Shown here piece by piece: positions 57,636 through 64,000 of a stretch of DNA of 64,000 bases (the stretch's first letter is position 1; each line of letters starts with the position of its first letter). The translations under genes were made by a program, and so were the position numbers. Source of the stretch: Methanococcoides sp. EBM-47. GTDB lineage: Archaea > Halobacteriota > Methanosarcinia > Methanosarcinales > Methanosarcinaceae. The stretch covers positions 248,001 through 312,000 of the forward strand of contig MPPA01000009.1 of NCBI GenBank assembly GCA_001896725.1. Direction: 5' to 3'. The notes under the pieces were generated by a model that was not told the DNA's origin, made no database searches, and was given only the letters and a program-made list of their open reading frames with translations.

Positions 57636-58241
57636 TCAGTCCTGAACGTAAAGTACGTACAAGCATGAGTTTTCCCGCATTTCCATAAAACCCTGTGTTT
57701 CCGAAATGCCTGCCTTTTCCAGCAATACCTTCTTCCAGGATTCAGGAGGCAATGCGATCTTACCTGTATATGCTTTTGCAGCTATTTGGGCATACTGCAA
57801 GGGTTTACCGCCTATTTTTATCCTCTTTGCCACCTCATTACGGTATGTTTGATGCATCATGCAAGCACTATGTGCGGCAGAAGGCTGTATAGTATGGTTA
57901 TAATGATCAGTAGCTTCCATATGCACTGGATTGAAATTACCGAGACGTTTGATATATTCTCTTATAGCTTTTGAAAATGGACATATGTTTGTAACAAAAC
58001 CATTGCTACTGATCTGTTTTATGTTCTCAAAGGATGAAAGTACTGATTCACCATTGACCACCGCGTTAGTGAAGTCTTCCCAGGTATCATATTCTTCTTC
58101 CGGTACAGATCTTGCAAGGGATTTTGCCTGTCCCACAATATAGTTTGTGAAGCCTTCAACACCCTGTTTATCAGATATATCCTCAAAGAAGAGGAAAACA
58201 GACACATCAACAAAAGGATTAGAGGTTATCGTTTCTGCCAT
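57636..58241 (-). CDS. Cys/His protein of unknown function, paralogue of the neighbour upstream
   Basis: The 201-residue protein shares with the gene at 58252-58878 an ordered set of residues: an ICP motif (TNICPFSKAIREYIKRLG), Y-N-x-x-I, a C-x-x-H-Q-x-Y-R motif (CMMHQTYRNEVA), K-P-L, and a late S-C (ENSCLYVLYV). Three Cys and one His in conserved positions suggest a metal or cofactor site. I cannot name the family with confidence; methanogen signalling output or sensor domains have similar Cys patterns. It starts 10 bases after the paralogue's stop. Confidence 0.75.
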   Translation of the reverse strand: MAETITSNPFVDVSVFLFFEDISDKQGVEGFTNYIVGQAKSLARSVPEEEYDTWEDFTNAVVNGESVLSSFENIKQISSNGFVTNICPFSKAIREYIKRLGNFNPVHMEATDHYNHTIQPSAAHSACMMHQTYRNEVAKRIKIGGKPLQYAQIAAKAYTGKIALPPESWKKVLLEKAGISETQGFMEMRENSCLYVLYVQD

Positions 58242-58251
58242 TCACTTCACC

Positions 58252-58878
58252 TTACTCTGTTATTTCCTCACCTGCAGTTCTCCCCTTCACGATCAATGCA
58301 AAGACACAGGAAGCACTTCTAAGGATACTTTTTATATGCCGATCGTCAACATTAATCCTTGCAAGGTTTTCCTGCAACATCTTTACTTCCCCCATCCGTC
58401 CTTTGTTTGCAAGGTGCAGGCATTCAAGAGGTTGCTTTGCAACAGTTATGTTGTTGGCTGCCACTTCTCTGAACCGCTGATGAGTTATACAATAATTAGA
58501 AACAGCTGAGTCACGGATGCGATTATTATAGCTATCGGCAACATCTTCATCAGAGTCAGGTATCGGGCCTATCTTCTGGATGAACCTGATCATAGTAGGG
58601 GCCATCGGACATGTTCTCAATGCATACACATATCCTATCACGTCTCCATCCTTATCGATGATAGCAAGATCTGTAAGTACATTTACATCACCTTCAATGG
58701 TAAGAGAAGTTCTGCCTTCTTTCATTGCTACATTAAAAGCCGGCCAGCCAACATATGCTTCTTTCCCCATTCTTTCTGCGTAACTCTCTCCGACCCGAAG
58801 CCAGTATTCCACTACACCTTCAGTGCCGGCCTTGCTAACCATATCGTCAACAAGTGAATATAATGCTATATCCATCAT
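58252..58878 (-). CDS. Cys/His protein of unknown function, paralogue of the neighbour downstream
   Basis: The 208-residue protein aligns by eye with the 201-residue protein next to it: TCPMAPTMIRFIQKIG, Y-N-N-R-I, CITHQRFREVA, K-Q-P-L and SASCVFALIV, preceded by an N-terminal segment about residues 1-80 with weaker match. The central part VLTDLAIIDKDGDVIGYVYA resembles a small ligand-binding fold. No signal peptide is seen, so it is cytosolic. The pair is probably co-transcribed and lies near the chemotaxis genes on the same strand. Confidence 0.75.
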   Translation of the reverse strand: MMDIALYSLVDDMVSKAGTEGVVEYWLRVGESYAERMGKEAYVGWPAFNVAMKEGRTSLTIEGDVNVLTDLAIIDKDGDVIGYVYALRTCPMAPTMIRFIQKIGPIPDSDEDVADSYNNRIRDSAVSNYCITHQRFREVAANNITVAKQPLECLHLANKGRMGEVKMLQENLARINVDDRHIKSILRSASCVFALIVKGRTAGEEITE

Positions 58879-59101: not shown

Positions 59102-59731
59102 TTATTGGTCATTCAACAACCTTTCAATCCTAATGAACAAGGAGCTCAAAGAACCTTTGTCAAGAAAAACTAACATGTCGCCATAAAGAGCAGAACTACC
59201 TTGAGGATTGGATAAAACCTGTACTTGGAACATCGTTTCAATATTTAGTACACTGGTAGACCCATTTCCTATTCTGTCTGTGATCTCAGCGAACAGCTCT
59301 TTGGCATCCCCTATTAGTATTTCTGGAGTTGATTGAAATACCCTGGTTCCCAGAAGATCATATATATTTTTCAGAAAGGATCCTGCCAGGATATTGCCCA
59401 TTTCATTGAGGGCAGACTCATACATTTCGGGATCTTCTTCCAGTGTGTTCTTGCTCAACAGAAGAGAACTAAGAGCGATCGCACTATTAGAATCAAAAAG
59501 CACCATCATGGTACCGTTCAGATCTCCTGTGAGTTCCATCATTATAGCTACCAGAGTAATAGATAAAGGCATCGTTGAAGGAATTGATATCATATCTATC
59601 ATCTGTGAGTTTGACAGGTTCAGTTGAACATTGCAATCTAAAAGATGTGAGAGAGCTGTTGCAGCATTACCCATACCAATGCTTCCTATCTCTTTCAGGG
59701 CATCTGAATGAAGATCTGTAAGCTGTTCCAT
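59102..59731 (-). CDS. cheC: CheC-family chemotaxis phosphatase (first site degenerate)
   Basis: The 209-residue CheC/FliY-fold protein has two potential D/S-x3-E-x2-N-x22-P sites. The second is intact (SALNEMGN near residue 105, with Pro after 22 residues). The first reads DALKEIGS, with Ser instead of Asn, and the expected Pro is absent. Known CheC proteins dephosphorylate CheY-P. It is the last gene of the chemotaxis run. Confidence 0.9.
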   Translation of the reverse strand: MEQLTDLHSDALKEIGSIGMGNAATALSHLLDCNVQLNLSNSQMIDMISIPSTMPLSITLVAIMMELTGDLNGTMMVLFDSNSAIALSSLLLSKNTLEEDPEMYESALNEMGNILAGSFLKNIYDLLGTRVFQSTPEILIGDAKELFAEITDRIGNGSTSVLNIETMFQVQVLSNPQGSSALYGDMLVFLDKGSLSSLFIRIERLLNDQ

Positions 59732-59759
59732 AGGACTAGATCCTGGTCAATCCTTTTTT

Positions 59760-60767
59760 CTATGTTTTGTTTTCAAGAAAAAACCGCTTGCCTGCATAAA
59801 AGCGAACGAATTCCTCTTTGCCACCTTTTACTATCTTTATACTATCCTCTGTCTCCTCTCCAATGTTCACAAATAGTCCTTCGAACTTACCGATAACTTC
59901 CTCAGGATGTGCAAGTCTATTGATCATACCAACCAGTATGACCCCTTTAGATGCAAAATCCTCTACCATTTTTGATACAAAGCTATAGGTAAAGCCTTCT
60001 CCCTTTGTCAGGAGCATATGGGAGAGCGGTTCAAATATAAGGGCACAGCCTGCAGGAAGTTTACTTGTCAGATCAAAGAAACTGTCAAGATCGGCCATCG
60101 GCAACATGATCACGCCATCTTTTTCAACCAGTTTTCTTTCAATACTGGATAGTTCAATGAACTTCATGGCTCCTATATCCACCAGTTCCCCCAGTCTGTC
60201 CTTATATATAGAAGTCCGGGGTTCTGTAGACACCAGTATCACATTCATGGTTTCCCCATAAAAGCGGAGGCACATTTCTATTACTGAATCCTCGTATCGG
60301 GTTTTGGGGGTATATTCTATCATTGTTGACCATTGCAATAGCCTGGCAATGTCTTCAGTATCGTTCGGATCATATTCAGAGGTCCTTTGTTTTGATTCTC
60401 TGAATACCATTCCCTCTATGAGGAAATCACCCAGGTTCTGGCGGGGAATGGTCTTAAAAGCTTGGAACATCAGAAAGCCAGCCGCTGCAAATATACTTGT
60501 GTATACAGCACTCCAGAAGCCAAGGAACAATAATATGGTCTCAACTACATCATGATCAGGATTTCCAACTGCCAGAGCAGGGAAAATCGCAGTAGTGATA
60601 AGGAATATTGCTGTTAGGGCAAGCAGAAGCCAAGCAACAGAACCCCTTCTTGTATCTTCGTATACCTTTATCCAGAAATAAATAGCAGACATTCCTCCCA
60701 AAAGGGAGATCGATATGAACATAATGTGCAATAACGTAAGGTTTGAACTAAGCATTCTTGCCTCCAC
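59760..60767 (-). CDS. Membrane protein with DUF835 domain in the chemotaxis operon
   Basis: The 335-residue protein has three hydrophobic segments in residues about 12-105 (LLHIMFISISLLGGMSAIYF, WLLLALTAIFLITTAIFPAL, SIFAAAGFLMFQAF), then a soluble domain from about 125. The soluble part has the DUF835 pattern (MNVILVSTEPRTSIYKDRLG, GCALIFEPLSHMLL, VSKMVEDFASKGVILVGMIN), a RecA/KaiC-like fold. A membrane-bound signalling role is likely. It lies between cheD and cheC, spaced 39 and 28 bases, so it is in the operon. Confidence 0.75.
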   Translation of the reverse strand: MEARMLSSNLTLLHIMFISISLLGGMSAIYFWIKVYEDTRRGSVAWLLLALTAIFLITTAIFPALAVGNPDHDVVETILLFLGFWSAVYTSIFAAAGFLMFQAFKTIPRQNLGDFLIEGMVFRESKQRTSEYDPNDTEDIARLLQWSTMIEYTPKTRYEDSVIEMCLRFYGETMNVILVSTEPRTSIYKDRLGELVDIGAMKFIELSSIERKLVEKDGVIMLPMADLDSFFDLTSKLPAGCALIFEPLSHMLLTKGEGFTYSFVSKMVEDFASKGVILVGMINRLAHPEEVIGKFEGLFVNIGEETEDSIKIVKGGKEEFVRFYAGKRFFLENKT

Positions 60768-60806
60768 AGGAATATGTTTTATTTAATAAATAAAATAATA
60801 TTAAGT

Positions 60807-61280
60807 TCAAATTATGTTCTCCCCCATTATTGCACTTTTAATATAGTATACTCCTGTATCTGTGTCCAACAAGACAGTGCGCCCATAATTTTTTCCCACA
60901 TCTTCTGATATTAGGGGCACCTTCATTTCAGAAAGTACCATCTTTGTAGCCTGTACATTTCGTTCACCAATGTTCAGGCTAGCATCGCTGTTAAAAGAGA
61001 ACATCTTTGCCCCTCCAGCTATTTTAGCTACCAGTCTTCTGCGCACTGCTCCTATACGTATCATTTCCTCAATGAGGCAAGGTATACCGCTGTCTGCAAA
61101 TTTGGCACAGTTATCTTTAAAGCGTGCATTTTCAATAGTTGGCAACATTATATGTATCAATCCCCCTATTTTTGCCACAGGGTCATAGAGGGCGATACCT
61201 ACGCAGGATCCTAAACCCAGAGTTGTCAATTTCTCAGGGCTGCGACTCACGGCATAATCTGCCATTCCTATCACTATCAT
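60807..61280 (-). CDS. cheD: CheD chemoreceptor glutamine deamidase
   Basis: The 157-residue protein has Cys26 in LGLGSCVGIALYD, His43 in GLIHIMLP and Thr20, the same trio as the Cys27, His44 and Thr21 active site of Thermotoga CheD. It deamidates receptors and binds CheC, which is next to it. The gene starts at ATG 61280, 19 bases after the stop of the upstream cheC. Confidence 0.95.
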   Translation of the reverse strand: MIVIGMADYAVSRSPEKLTTLGLGSCVGIALYDPVAKIGGLIHIMLPTIENARFKDNCAKFADSGIPCLIEEMIRIGAVRRRLVAKIAGGAKMFSFNSDASLNIGERNVQATKMVLSEMKVPLISEDVGKNYGRTVLLDTDTGVYYIKSAIMGENII

Positions 61281-61299
61281 AATATCAGTCGATTAAGCA

Positions 61300-61917
61300 T
61301 CAATGGAACAGTGCGTTCACTTGCTCTAAGATCAATTCAAGGGATGTCGGATCGAACAGAGTGAGTAGTTTTCCATGCATATCATTGCCTTTTAAAGTGA
61401 ACAGAGTATTCAGAATGATGGCATGTTCCACTTCTTGGCTCATTTGAATGAGTATATTGTCCATAATGGCTCCGATCATATCATATATATGAAAAGGGGC
61501 TGATGCAAAAGCATCCACTTTGAGGAGATCAGAAAATGCGGTCATATAGGCACTTCCAAGGATGTGGCCCACTTCTGATATAAGGGACTCGTTCATTGGA
61601 TCATTTATATTTGAGTTTTGTTGTTTTGTCATTATATTGCAGATAAGCTTTGCACTTTCCAGTGGCAAAAGCATGACCATATATCCATTTACTCCACCGG
61701 ATAGTTCCATAAGGACCCCTGAAACCAGTTTATCTGCACCCCCTGAGGCTTCTGTCACTTCTTCTATTTTAGCAACTTTAAGATCAGGGGTCATTATCTT
61801 TACTTCACTTCCAAGCATCATTGCCAGAGAAGTGACCGCATTACCTATTCCTATATTGCTTATCTCTTTTAAAGCGCTGTAGTGGAACTCAGTGAGCTTG
61901 GAAACATCATATATCAT
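61300..61917 (-). CDS. cheC: CheC-family chemotaxis phosphatase (second site degenerate)
   Basis: The 205-residue CheC paralogue has the first site SALKEISN intact, with Pro after 22 residues. The second site reads SLISEVGH, with His in place of Asn; its Pro is kept. It lies between cheR and cheD on the same strand. Confidence 0.9.
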   Translation of the reverse strand: MIYDVSKLTEFHYSALKEISNIGIGNAVTSLAMMLGSEVKIMTPDLKVAKIEEVTEASGGADKLVSGVLMELSGGVNGYMVMLLPLESAKLICNIMTKQQNSNINDPMNESLISEVGHILGSAYMTAFSDLLKVDAFASAPFHIYDMIGAIMDNILIQMSQEVEHAIILNTLFTLKGNDMHGKLLTLFDPTSLELILEQVNALFH

Positions 61918-61951
61918 AGGACCATCCCTTTTAGCTGAACCATCAGTACTT

Positions 61952-62773
61952 TTATTTTTGATATATTCGTTCTCTAGGATTAAAGGCTTTAAAAAGATCT
62001 TTGGAAGGGCCGATCAATGTTTCTGTTTTTCCCATTACAAAAAATCCACCATTGTTGAGCCCATTGTAAAAATCCATATATAGGCTTTCCTGGAGATGTT
62101 TTTCAAAATAGATAGTGACATTACGACAAAATATAGCATCAAAGCCTGTGAGCTTTTCTCCGGAAATAAGGTCATTGCTGCGGAATTTTGTCACCCTTTT
62201 GATCTCATTCTTTAAATGGTAGCTCTTCCCATCATGATCAAAATATTTAATGCGGATATCAGCAGGGACCTCTTTCATCTCAATTTCTGAATACACAGCT
62301 TCTTCAGCTCTTTTAAGGATATCCTTATCAATGTCAGTTCCAGTGATCTGGATGTTATATCTGGAAAAACTATTTCCAAGTATCCTATGCAGCAGTATTG
62401 CTATGGAATAGGCTTCAGCACCTATAGAGCACCCTGCACTCCATATTCGTATGTTCCGAAGCTCTGTGCTTTTAGACTTTATTATGATGGGCAGTACTTC
62501 TTTTTCCACGACTGCGTATGTTTCAGGGTTCCTGAAAAAGTTAGTAACGTTCACTGTGAGAGTATCCATCAACTGTTTATACTCATCTTTATGCGTATTG
62601 AGATATTGTATATATTCTCCAAAATTTTTCGAGCCAGTTGCCCTCATTCTCACATCAATTCTTCTTCTGAAATGTGAATCTTTGTATTGTTCACTATTGA
62701 ACTCCAAATTCTTTTTAATGAGCCCTTTTAATTTTATGTATTCCTGGTCTTCAGATGACTTAAGCTCCAACAT
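61952..62773 (-). CDS. cheR: CheR chemotaxis protein methyltransferase
   Basis: The 273-residue protein has an N-terminal helical domain with FRRRIDVRMRATGSKNFGEY and a SAM-binding domain with IRIWSAGCSIGAEAYSIAIL, the usual CheR signature, then ITGTDIDKDIL and AIFCRNVTIYF. It methylates glutamates of chemoreceptors. The genes on both sides are cheC paralogues. Confidence 0.96.
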   Translation of the reverse strand: MLELKSSEDQEYIKLKGLIKKNLEFNSEQYKDSHFRRRIDVRMRATGSKNFGEYIQYLNTHKDEYKQLMDTLTVNVTNFFRNPETYAVVEKEVLPIIIKSKSTELRNIRIWSAGCSIGAEAYSIAILLHRILGNSFSRYNIQITGTDIDKDILKRAEEAVYSEIEMKEVPADIRIKYFDHDGKSYHLKNEIKRVTKFRSNDLISGEKLTGFDAIFCRNVTIYFEKHLQESLYMDFYNGLNNGGFFVMGKTETLIGPSKDLFKAFNPRERIYQK

Positions 62774-62854
62774 TTAGCCAACTCCTTTGATATAAATCCG
62801 TTTTTTAAAAATAATCACTTGTTACGTTTTTAGGCAACCAACTATCAGGATCTG

Positions 62855-63469
62855 TTATCCCATCATTTTCTTCATGATGGCTGCAACGATCACATCTGAA
62901 GCTCCAGGTTCAAAAAGCATATTGAACTCATTACGGGAATTTGTAGATGGCACATAACCTACTCCTTTCACCACGATGAACTCATCAGCCATGGACCCCA
63001 CAGTATCTTTTATAAATTTTCCAACTCCTTCCATGTCCACGCATATCTCAGGTTCACTTATCTGCAGGTTAATTCCCAAGAACTCGTTCACTACTCTCAT
63101 ATATGCAGCGCATAGTCGCACTCCCATCTCCCGGAGCTTTTTTATCTCTTCCTCTTGAATAGTGTGGGTAGTACCAATTGGTTTTTTTCTGAGCAGGTCA
63201 ACAAAGGAGAGAGCTGAATATTTTGGTAGTAATATTAGTGTCCCTCCAACCACATCACCATTTATCTTTAAGTGTACACCTACGACACTTTTTTGAGTAC
63301 CCACTGAAGCCTCGTCTATGATCCTTTGCAGTGGATAAATATCCACCTTTGGAATGTCTATCTTTACCTCTCGATCAACCATTTTTGATAGAGATGTAGC
63401 TAAATGTCCCATTCCTATGTTCCCAGCTTCCTGAAAGGCACCCTTTGTCATTTCATCGAGTTCAGGCAT
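62855..63469 (-). CDS. cheC: CheC-family chemotaxis protein (second site lost)
   Basis: The 204-residue CheC paralogue has a first site GAFQEAGN with the E and N intact and Pro after 22 residues, though Gly replaces the leading Asp/Ser. The second reads KKLREMGV, where the Asn is Val; Pro is kept at the right spacing. It directly follows cheA (19-base gap). Confidence 0.88.
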   Translation of the reverse strand: MPELDEMTKGAFQEAGNIGMGHLATSLSKMVDREVKIDIPKVDIYPLQRIIDEASVGTQKSVVGVHLKINGDVVGGTLILLPKYSALSFVDLLRKKPIGTTHTIQEEEIKKLREMGVRLCAAYMRVVNEFLGINLQISEPEICVDMEGVGKFIKDTVGSMADEFIVVKGVGYVPSTNSRNEFNMLFEPGASDVIVAAIMKKMMG

Positions 63470-63488: not shown

Positions 63489-64000
63489 TCAGACCAATGT
63501 TCCAATGTCAAGTATCAAGCAAACGGTACCATTTCCTAGGATCGTGGCACCTGCAAATCCCTTTACACTACGTAGCACTTTACTGTCAAGAGATTTGATT
63601 ATCACTTCTTGCTGTCCTAGCAGTTCATCTACAACAAAACCGAAGTGGCTTCCCATCTTTTCTACAACTACTACGATGAGCTTCTCTTTCTTTTGCACTT
63701 CCGCAGGGCAGTCAAGCAGACTGTTAAGCCTTATAAGCGGTAAGACCTCTCCGCGTAGAAGGATAACTTCCTGCCCTTTTATTGTCTTAATATCCTGTGA
63801 TCTTATACCCAGGTCCCTTACTACATTGTTGAGAGGTATAGCGTACGTTTCACCTGCCGTTCTTATCATCAGTGACTGGATGATAGCAATAGTGAGAGGT
63901 AATTGAAGCGTGACAATACTTCCTTCACCAAGCACAGATCTTACTGATACGTTCCCTCCCAGTGATTCGATCTTTGTCTTGGCAGCATCCATTCCCACAC
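63489..64000 (-). CDS. cheA: CheA histidine kinase, C-terminal part (start outside window)
   Basis: The frame is open to the window edge. The visible 170 residues start in VGMDAAKTKIESLGGNVSVR, the G2 region of the HATPase domain, then GEGSIVTLQLPLTIAIIQSL, and go on to a CheW-like regulatory domain with AGETYAIPLNNVVRDLGIRS, VLPLIRLNSLL and VCLILDIGTLV. The rest of cheA, and probably cheW, cheY, cheB and a receptor, lie beyond 64000. Confidence 0.95.
   Translation of the reverse strand, partial: VGMDAAKTKIESLGGNVSVRSVLGEGSIVTLQLPLTIAIIQSLMIRTAGETYAIPLNNVVRDLGIRSQDIKTIKGQEVILLRGEVLPLIRLNSLLDCPAEVQKKEKLIVVVVEKMGSHFGFVVDELLGQQEVIIKSLDSKVLRSVKGFAGATILGNGTVCLILDIGTLV

Follow-up and report, generated by a model that had tools for sequence, protein, structure and literature searches.

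Three CheC paralogues with one Glu/Asn site each in a che operon of Methanosarcinaceae

Three cheC genes and their six sites

The 64,000-nucleotide stretch analysed here (the window) comes from Methanococcoides sp. EBM-47 (contig MPPA01000009.1, positions 248,001 to 312,000) and carries part of a chemotaxis (che) operon with three paralogues of cheC, which encodes a phosphatase of phosphorylated CheY (CheY-P). The original prediction, made from the letters alone, had placed three CheC proteins at this locus and proposed that, of the two phosphatase sites, each retains a single one. All three open reading frames (ORFs) are present and intact on the minus strand, and each product scores above the curated Pfam cut-off for CheC (PF04509, 22 bits).

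59102..59731, minus strand: cheC paralogue CheC59 (209 amino acids, aa); Pfam CheC 54.9 bits, with site table, AlphaFold2 model, Foldseek search and substitution rates
61300..61917, minus strand: cheC paralogue CheC61 (205 aa), adjoining cheD; Pfam CheC 49.3 bits, match to Thermotoga maritima CheC 1xkr at expectation value (E) 2e-18
62855..63469, minus strand: cheC paralogue CheC62 (204 aa); Pfam CheC 25.9 bits, AlphaFold2 model matched to 1xkr by Foldseek

Residues were mapped onto T. maritima CheC (1xkr) by pairwise and multiple alignment, a comparison that the original prediction had itself set as a check. Every residue it had counted falls in a catalytic Glu, Asn or Pro column of 1xkr, and against the consensus D/S-x3-E-x2-N-x22-P the aligned sites read as follows.

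59612..59704, minus strand: CheC59 site 1, D10-E14-S17-S40; Asn and Pro gone
59324..59416, minus strand: CheC59 site 2, S106-E110-N113-P136; full consensus
61786..61878, minus strand: CheC61 site 1, S14-E18-N21-P44; full consensus
61495..61587, minus strand: CheC61 site 2, S111-E115-H118-P141; His at the Asn position
63350..63442, minus strand: CheC62 site 1, G10-E14-N17-P40; Glu, Asn and Pro present, D/S replaced by Gly
63050..63142, minus strand: CheC62 site 2, K110-E114-V117-P140; Asn and D/S gone

The motif is thus complete in CheC59 site 2 and CheC61 site 1, and present with Gly at the first position in CheC62 site 1. The residues had been read correctly at all six sites; what does not hold is the description of CheC62 site 1 as intact, given the Gly in place of the consensus D/S. 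In the AlphaFold models of CheC62 and CheC59 (predicted local distance difference test scores of 91 and 88, respectively) the Glu/Asn pairs lie on two long helices, which span residues 6-31 and roughly 101-131. Foldseek returned CheC as the top match for both (query TM-score 0.77 for CheC62 against 1xkr, 0.79 for CheC59 against 2f9z). Judged by sequence, and in two cases also by predicted structure, the three proteins are complete CheCs.

The best match by both sequence and fold is the class I CheC of T. maritima (1xkr, 2f9z), with which the window proteins share fold, length and two-site layout, and CheC61 also the neighbouring cheD. However, Thermotoga CheC has Glu, Asn and Pro at both sites, whereas each window protein has Glu and Asn at one. 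As to the marks of class I, two complete sites are found in none of the three, and a cheD neighbour with a Met-Phe motif is found for CheC61. Three classes of CheC have reportedly been described, and site 2 of FliY is reported to be its more active one; neither point serves as evidence here.

Two related families were considered and rejected. CheX (1xko, 3hzh) belongs to the same phosphatase family and has one active site, and the Pfam CheX model matches CheC59 above its cut-off. CheX is shorter, however (155-172 aa in the PDB chains), and NCBIfam (CheC 99 bits against CheX 29.5) and Foldseek both place CheC59 with CheC. FliY (4hyn) joins a two-site domain of the CheC type to a C-terminal FliN-like domain, whereas the window proteins stop after the CheC domain and none of them (204-209 aa) has a Pfam match to the FliN-like (SPOA) family. 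The FliY proteins of Campylobacter, Helicobacter and Leptospira are of CheC type and reported to be devoid of phosphatase sites (PMC6946799), in contrast to the window CheCs, which keep one of two.

Inheritance of the one-site pattern and its archaeal baseline

ORFs were called in che loci taken from 60 relatives and a 296-genome sample of the phylum; one contig scan with CheC61 as query matched congeners only. A paralogue tree built without the catalytic columns contained a CheC62 clade (13 rows; Shimodaira-Hasegawa-like approximate likelihood ratio test, SH-aLRT, 100), a CheC59 clade that takes in a fourth cheC of genus g5 (16 rows, SH-aLRT 99) and a CheC61 clade (17 rows, SH-aLRT 96). Among CheC62 orthologues, Glu, Asn and Pro of site 1 are present in 12/12 and Gly occupies the D/S position in 11/12. 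None of the 12 has the site-2 Asn, which is replaced by Leu (5), Val (3), Met (2), Ser (1) or Phe (1), and the D/S position of that site is now Lys, Arg, Met, Asn or Thr. CheC59 orthologues have Glu and Pro at site 2 in 11/11 and Asn in 10/11; at site 1, Asn occurs once in 11 (otherwise Ser in six, Gly in three and Thr in one) and Pro never (Ser or Ala). Proteins of CheC61 type carry Glu and Asn at site 1 in all 19 cases, with His (11/19), Asn (7/19) or Gln (1/19) at site 2. The Glu of the degenerate site is present in 11/11 CheC59, 19/19 CheC61 and 10/12 CheC62 sequences.

The ratio of non-synonymous to synonymous substitution rates (dN/dS; Nei-Gojobori, against congeners) was 0.03-0.06 for CheC62, 0.05-0.13 for CheC61 and 0.22-0.23 for CheC59; some of the pairwise dS values are above 1 and are only approximate. 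CheC62 is the most conserved of the three, and the rate of CheC59 is several times higher. By this test purifying selection acts on all three genes; pseudogene decay is ruled out by this range (0.03-0.23) together with the three intact frames. Of the two pseudo-symmetric sites, each clade retains the Glu and Asn of one, and in its window protein the Asn is lost at the other. The prediction of one Glu/Asn motif per protein, with the lost half differing between proteins, is borne out in the three window proteins. Conservation in orthologues across genera argues against chance, and chance or misaligned motifs are further excluded by the 1xkr alignment and the models. By these counts the one-site pattern is old and inherited, firmly so in CheC62, nearly so in CheC59 and in labile form in CheC61, and states kept per clade by selection are what old subfunctionalisation would be expected to leave.

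How unusual this is depends on the archaeal baseline. Among 140 CheC domains sampled from the phylum, weighted to the window's family and to high-scoring matches so that proportions are rough, Glu and Asn were found at both sites in 37, at site 2 only in 70, at site 1 only in 30 and at neither in three; one or both sites thus lack Glu or Asn in 103 of the 140. The premise that CheC usually has two sites therefore fails for archaea, and with a base rate of 100/140 for single-site domains, three such proteins in one operon are unsurprising in themselves. Nor is a set of three cheC genes uncommon, as had been supposed: Halobacterium salinarum has three (PMC3579733), and some relatives have four in this very operon. 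Single-site CheC and several cheC per genome are ordinary in archaea. What stands out in this sample is the retention of site 1 alone, since the 30 site-1-only domains are restricted to the CheC61 and CheC62 clades of Methanosarcinaceae. The many single-site domains that were sampled from other families have retained site 2; in the window, CheC61 and CheC62 have retained site 1. The same contrast is seen with the Haloarcula marismortui CheC-like protein 3qta, an archaeal CheC fold with a single Glu/Asn site that was matched by sequence and fold: in the alignment its site 2 is retained and its site 1 missing, like CheC59 and opposite to CheC61 and CheC62. Hbt. salinarum resembles the window organism in having three paralogues in one archaeon, but its cheC2 lies outside the cluster; the reported partners are CheB for CheC1, CheD and CheF for CheC2, and CheD for CheC3 (PMC3579733). 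The arrangement thus departs only modestly from what is already known.

Taken together, we consider it likely that the operon encodes three anciently duplicated CheY-P phosphatases of the CheC family, each with one predicted working site, the degenerate half being retained chiefly as scaffold. A plainer account shares the scaffold part of this explanation: one site would suffice, the spare would have decayed neutrally after duplication, and the other lobe would persist solely as one half of the fold, neither binding a partner nor sharing out tasks among the copies. We regard it as a serious possibility that falls somewhat short of probable. Site loss is common in the phylum (the 103 domains above), CheC59 is missing in one congener (genome G004), and the site-2 Asn column of CheC62 is the freest of the motif (Val, Met, Leu, Ser or Phe; entropy 2.05, with 0.76 as the mean over the helix), with Glu and Pro of that site lost as well in the CheC62-type protein of locus L058. 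Yet neutral decay does not readily account for a direction of loss that is fixed per clade across genera, for the recurrence of His in the CheC61 clade instead of a mixture (11 His, 1 Gln, 7 Asn), or for the Glu that stays at most lost sites. For the degenerate lobe of CheC62, plain catalytic loss fits at least as well as a dedicated new role, because the Asn position is free and one genome has lost Glu and Pro too; the data do not favour a dedicated binding function of the degenerate lobes over simple decay of a spare site.

Predicted chemistry, probable CheD coupling and the degenerate lobes

For phosphatases of the CheC/CheX/FliY family, the parts played by Asn and Glu have been described (PMC3035606). 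At the kept sites, Asn would orient the attacking water and Glu would pair with the receiver lysine, so that the phospho-aspartate of CheY would be hydrolysed in the usual way; CheB would offer a second receiver. The operon CheY has both the phospho-acceptor Asp and the Lys, as read from its sequence. On the same chemistry, the hydrophobic sites of CheC62 and the Ser/Gly sites of CheC59 should not hydrolyse, and it is less certain that His disables site 2 of CheC61.

Several observations weigh against one working site per protein. Two clade-mates of CheC61 (loci L051 and L066) have Asn at site 2 whereas a close relative (L056) has His, so that loss of site 2 is not firmly fixed in this clade; a CheC59 orthologue in L054 has neither Asn; and His, Gln or Ser might still position water, by analogy with RapH, in which Q47E is fully active and Q47N dead (PMC3035606). 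Carried to its end, this argument would leave two working sites in every protein, with His, Gln, Ser or Gly permitting hydrolysis. The exchange of Asn with His or Gln within the CheC61 clade, with Glu and Pro kept, is in line with it, as is the active Q47E. We nevertheless think this improbable: the dead Q47N points to strict geometry, the hydrophobic residues that stand in for Asn at site 2 of CheC62 (Val, Met, Leu and Phe) have no polar group that could position water, and CheC59 site 1 is changed at both Asn and Pro.

The three proteins differ further in a putative CheD-contact Asp, whose position was taken from the VIDM of Thermotoga CheC and which we take to be equivalent to B. subtilis D149. 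This Asp is present in 19/19 CheC61 sequences, mixed in CheC62 (5 Asp and 7 Asn of 12) and absent from CheC59 (0/11; Gly or Glu instead). The cheD gene lies directly downstream of CheC61 and encodes, in GGAKMF, the Met-Phe that forms the CheC interface of CheD (PMC3513319). Coupling to CheD is thus probably unequal among the three CheCs, to judge from these residues. With the Asp kept in CheC61, mixed in CheC62 and absent in CheC59, a division of labour, which had been proposed on the sites alone, becomes plausible; the per-clade site states and the uneven Asp speak for it, while its presentation as a departure from a two-site archaeal norm has to be given up. In the most economical reading, we infer, CheC61 would be the CheD-coupled adaptation CheC and the other two phosphatases with other partners. 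CheC62 would act at site 1, and CheC59, the fast-evolving copy that one species does without, at site 2 and independently of CheD. The differing partners of the three Hbt. salinarum CheCs (PMC3579733) are in keeping with such an assignment.

The degenerate sites might instead dock CheY-P without turnover, thereby sequestering it or signalling its abundance to a partner, CheD or otherwise. The Glu present in most degenerate sites would suit such a role. RapH-Q47N, although catalytically dead, can bind Spo0F and prevent phosphotransfer (PMC3035606), and B. subtilis CheC relies on its interaction with CheD far more than on phosphatase activity (PMC3513319). Docking nonetheless seems to us rather unlikely, as Glu may be retained for reasons of fold and the D/S position of CheC62 site 2 has changed (Lys, Arg, Met, Asn or Thr). 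An elaborate form of the idea is improbable: the three CheCs would be a reciprocally split set, each degenerate lobe being a non-hydrolysing sensor or dock for CheY-P or phosphorylated CheB with a partner of its own (CheD for CheC61; for the others the product of the gene at 59760, h57 or h58, described below), and the Asn/His switch in CheC61 tuning turnover against binding.

Under the explanation that we favour, with one predicted working site per protein, the paralogue set is a useful natural experiment. It bears on the question of why CheC has two sites: single-site versions of both kinds occur naturally within the same operon, and site 1 can be set against site 2 without prior engineering. 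The operon also points to two very conserved proteins, h57 and h58, as possible members of the archaeal taxis pathway.

The remainder of the operon and CheF candidates

The other genes of the operon that lie in the window are listed here.

63489..64000, minus strand: cheA, 3' part; Pfam CheW-like domain, remainder of the gene outside the window
61952..62773, minus strand: cheR methyltransferase; Pfam CheR 173 bits
60807..61280, minus strand: cheD with GGAKMF; Pfam CheD 117 bits and motif
59760..60767, minus strand: gene 59760, no DUF835 match, hydrophobic N-terminal segments; orthologues in the operon in three genera
58252..58878, minus strand: h58, highly conserved, tied to the che operon
57636..58241, minus strand: h57, paralogue of h58 (~25% identity), always adjacent to it

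Transcription runs cheY, cheB, cheA, cheC62, cheR, cheC61, cheD, 59760, cheC59, h58, h57. The first two genes and the rest of cheA lie past the window end; the full genes were read in locus L005, where cheY, cheB and the 5' part of cheA were assigned by reading the sequence. Upstream of cheY, where the contig ends, are fragments that resemble a transposase (L005 3967-4929). The 2.18 Mb genome to which the window belongs (G000, contig C33) has two loci with FlaD/E archaellum genes, along with four signalling domains of methyl-accepting chemotaxis proteins, which gives the che operon plausible inputs and output.

The three-gene cheC layout was found in the che loci of five genera, with losses and moves. 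CheC61 and cheD sit at a different place in genus g6, and cheC62 is located elsewhere in genome G024. In the congener G004 (L046 7463-7791) there is no cheC59 between the 59760 orthologue and h58, the operon being otherwise intact. The fourth cheC of genus g5 lies in the same operon (L051 9001-9630, L056 10402-11010, L066 12946-13560, L131 8339-8950); it is related to CheC59 and has Glu and Asn at both sites, with Ser in place of the site-1 Pro.

For h57 and h58 (about 200 aa each) no convincing match was obtained in Pfam, NCBIfam or the PDB. Full-length h58 occurs only in genomes with this che operon (19/246 in the phylum), where it is always followed by h57, and elsewhere there is one weak partial match. 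Between genera h58 is 81-95% identical, far above the conservation of CheC, and the two proteins have invariant Cys, His and Arg in common. On this distribution and conservation, h57/h58 is a strong candidate for a hitherto unrecognised chemotaxis component. The product of 59760 had been named as a DUF835 partner; searches of Pfam and NCBIfam with E allowed up to 10 gave no DUF835 match for it, although it may be distantly related to that family. Its orthologue in genus g14 (L055 14525-15787) is longer (420 aa) and has a DUF3795 match over the cut-off.

A search of the window genome for CheF (PF04283) gave no match at E 0.001. The statement that this genome has no CheF was dropped as a firm claim, because a divergent 220-aa protein on contig C51 (G000 C51:215405-215962; L142 1495-2157) shows weak similarity to the CheF N-terminal region (E 0.006). 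Relatives of this protein are present in the che-operon genomes tested, its gene adjoins one with a weak V4R match, and it is possibly the missing adaptor between CheY and the archaellum. Two genomes of genus g5 (L138 5544-9264, L139 4801-8515) encode, outside the che operon, a protein of 402 aa whose N-terminal region resembles CheF and exceeds the Pfam cut-off in L138; it lies between a PAS-domain-like protein and an apparent KaiC-like ATPase.

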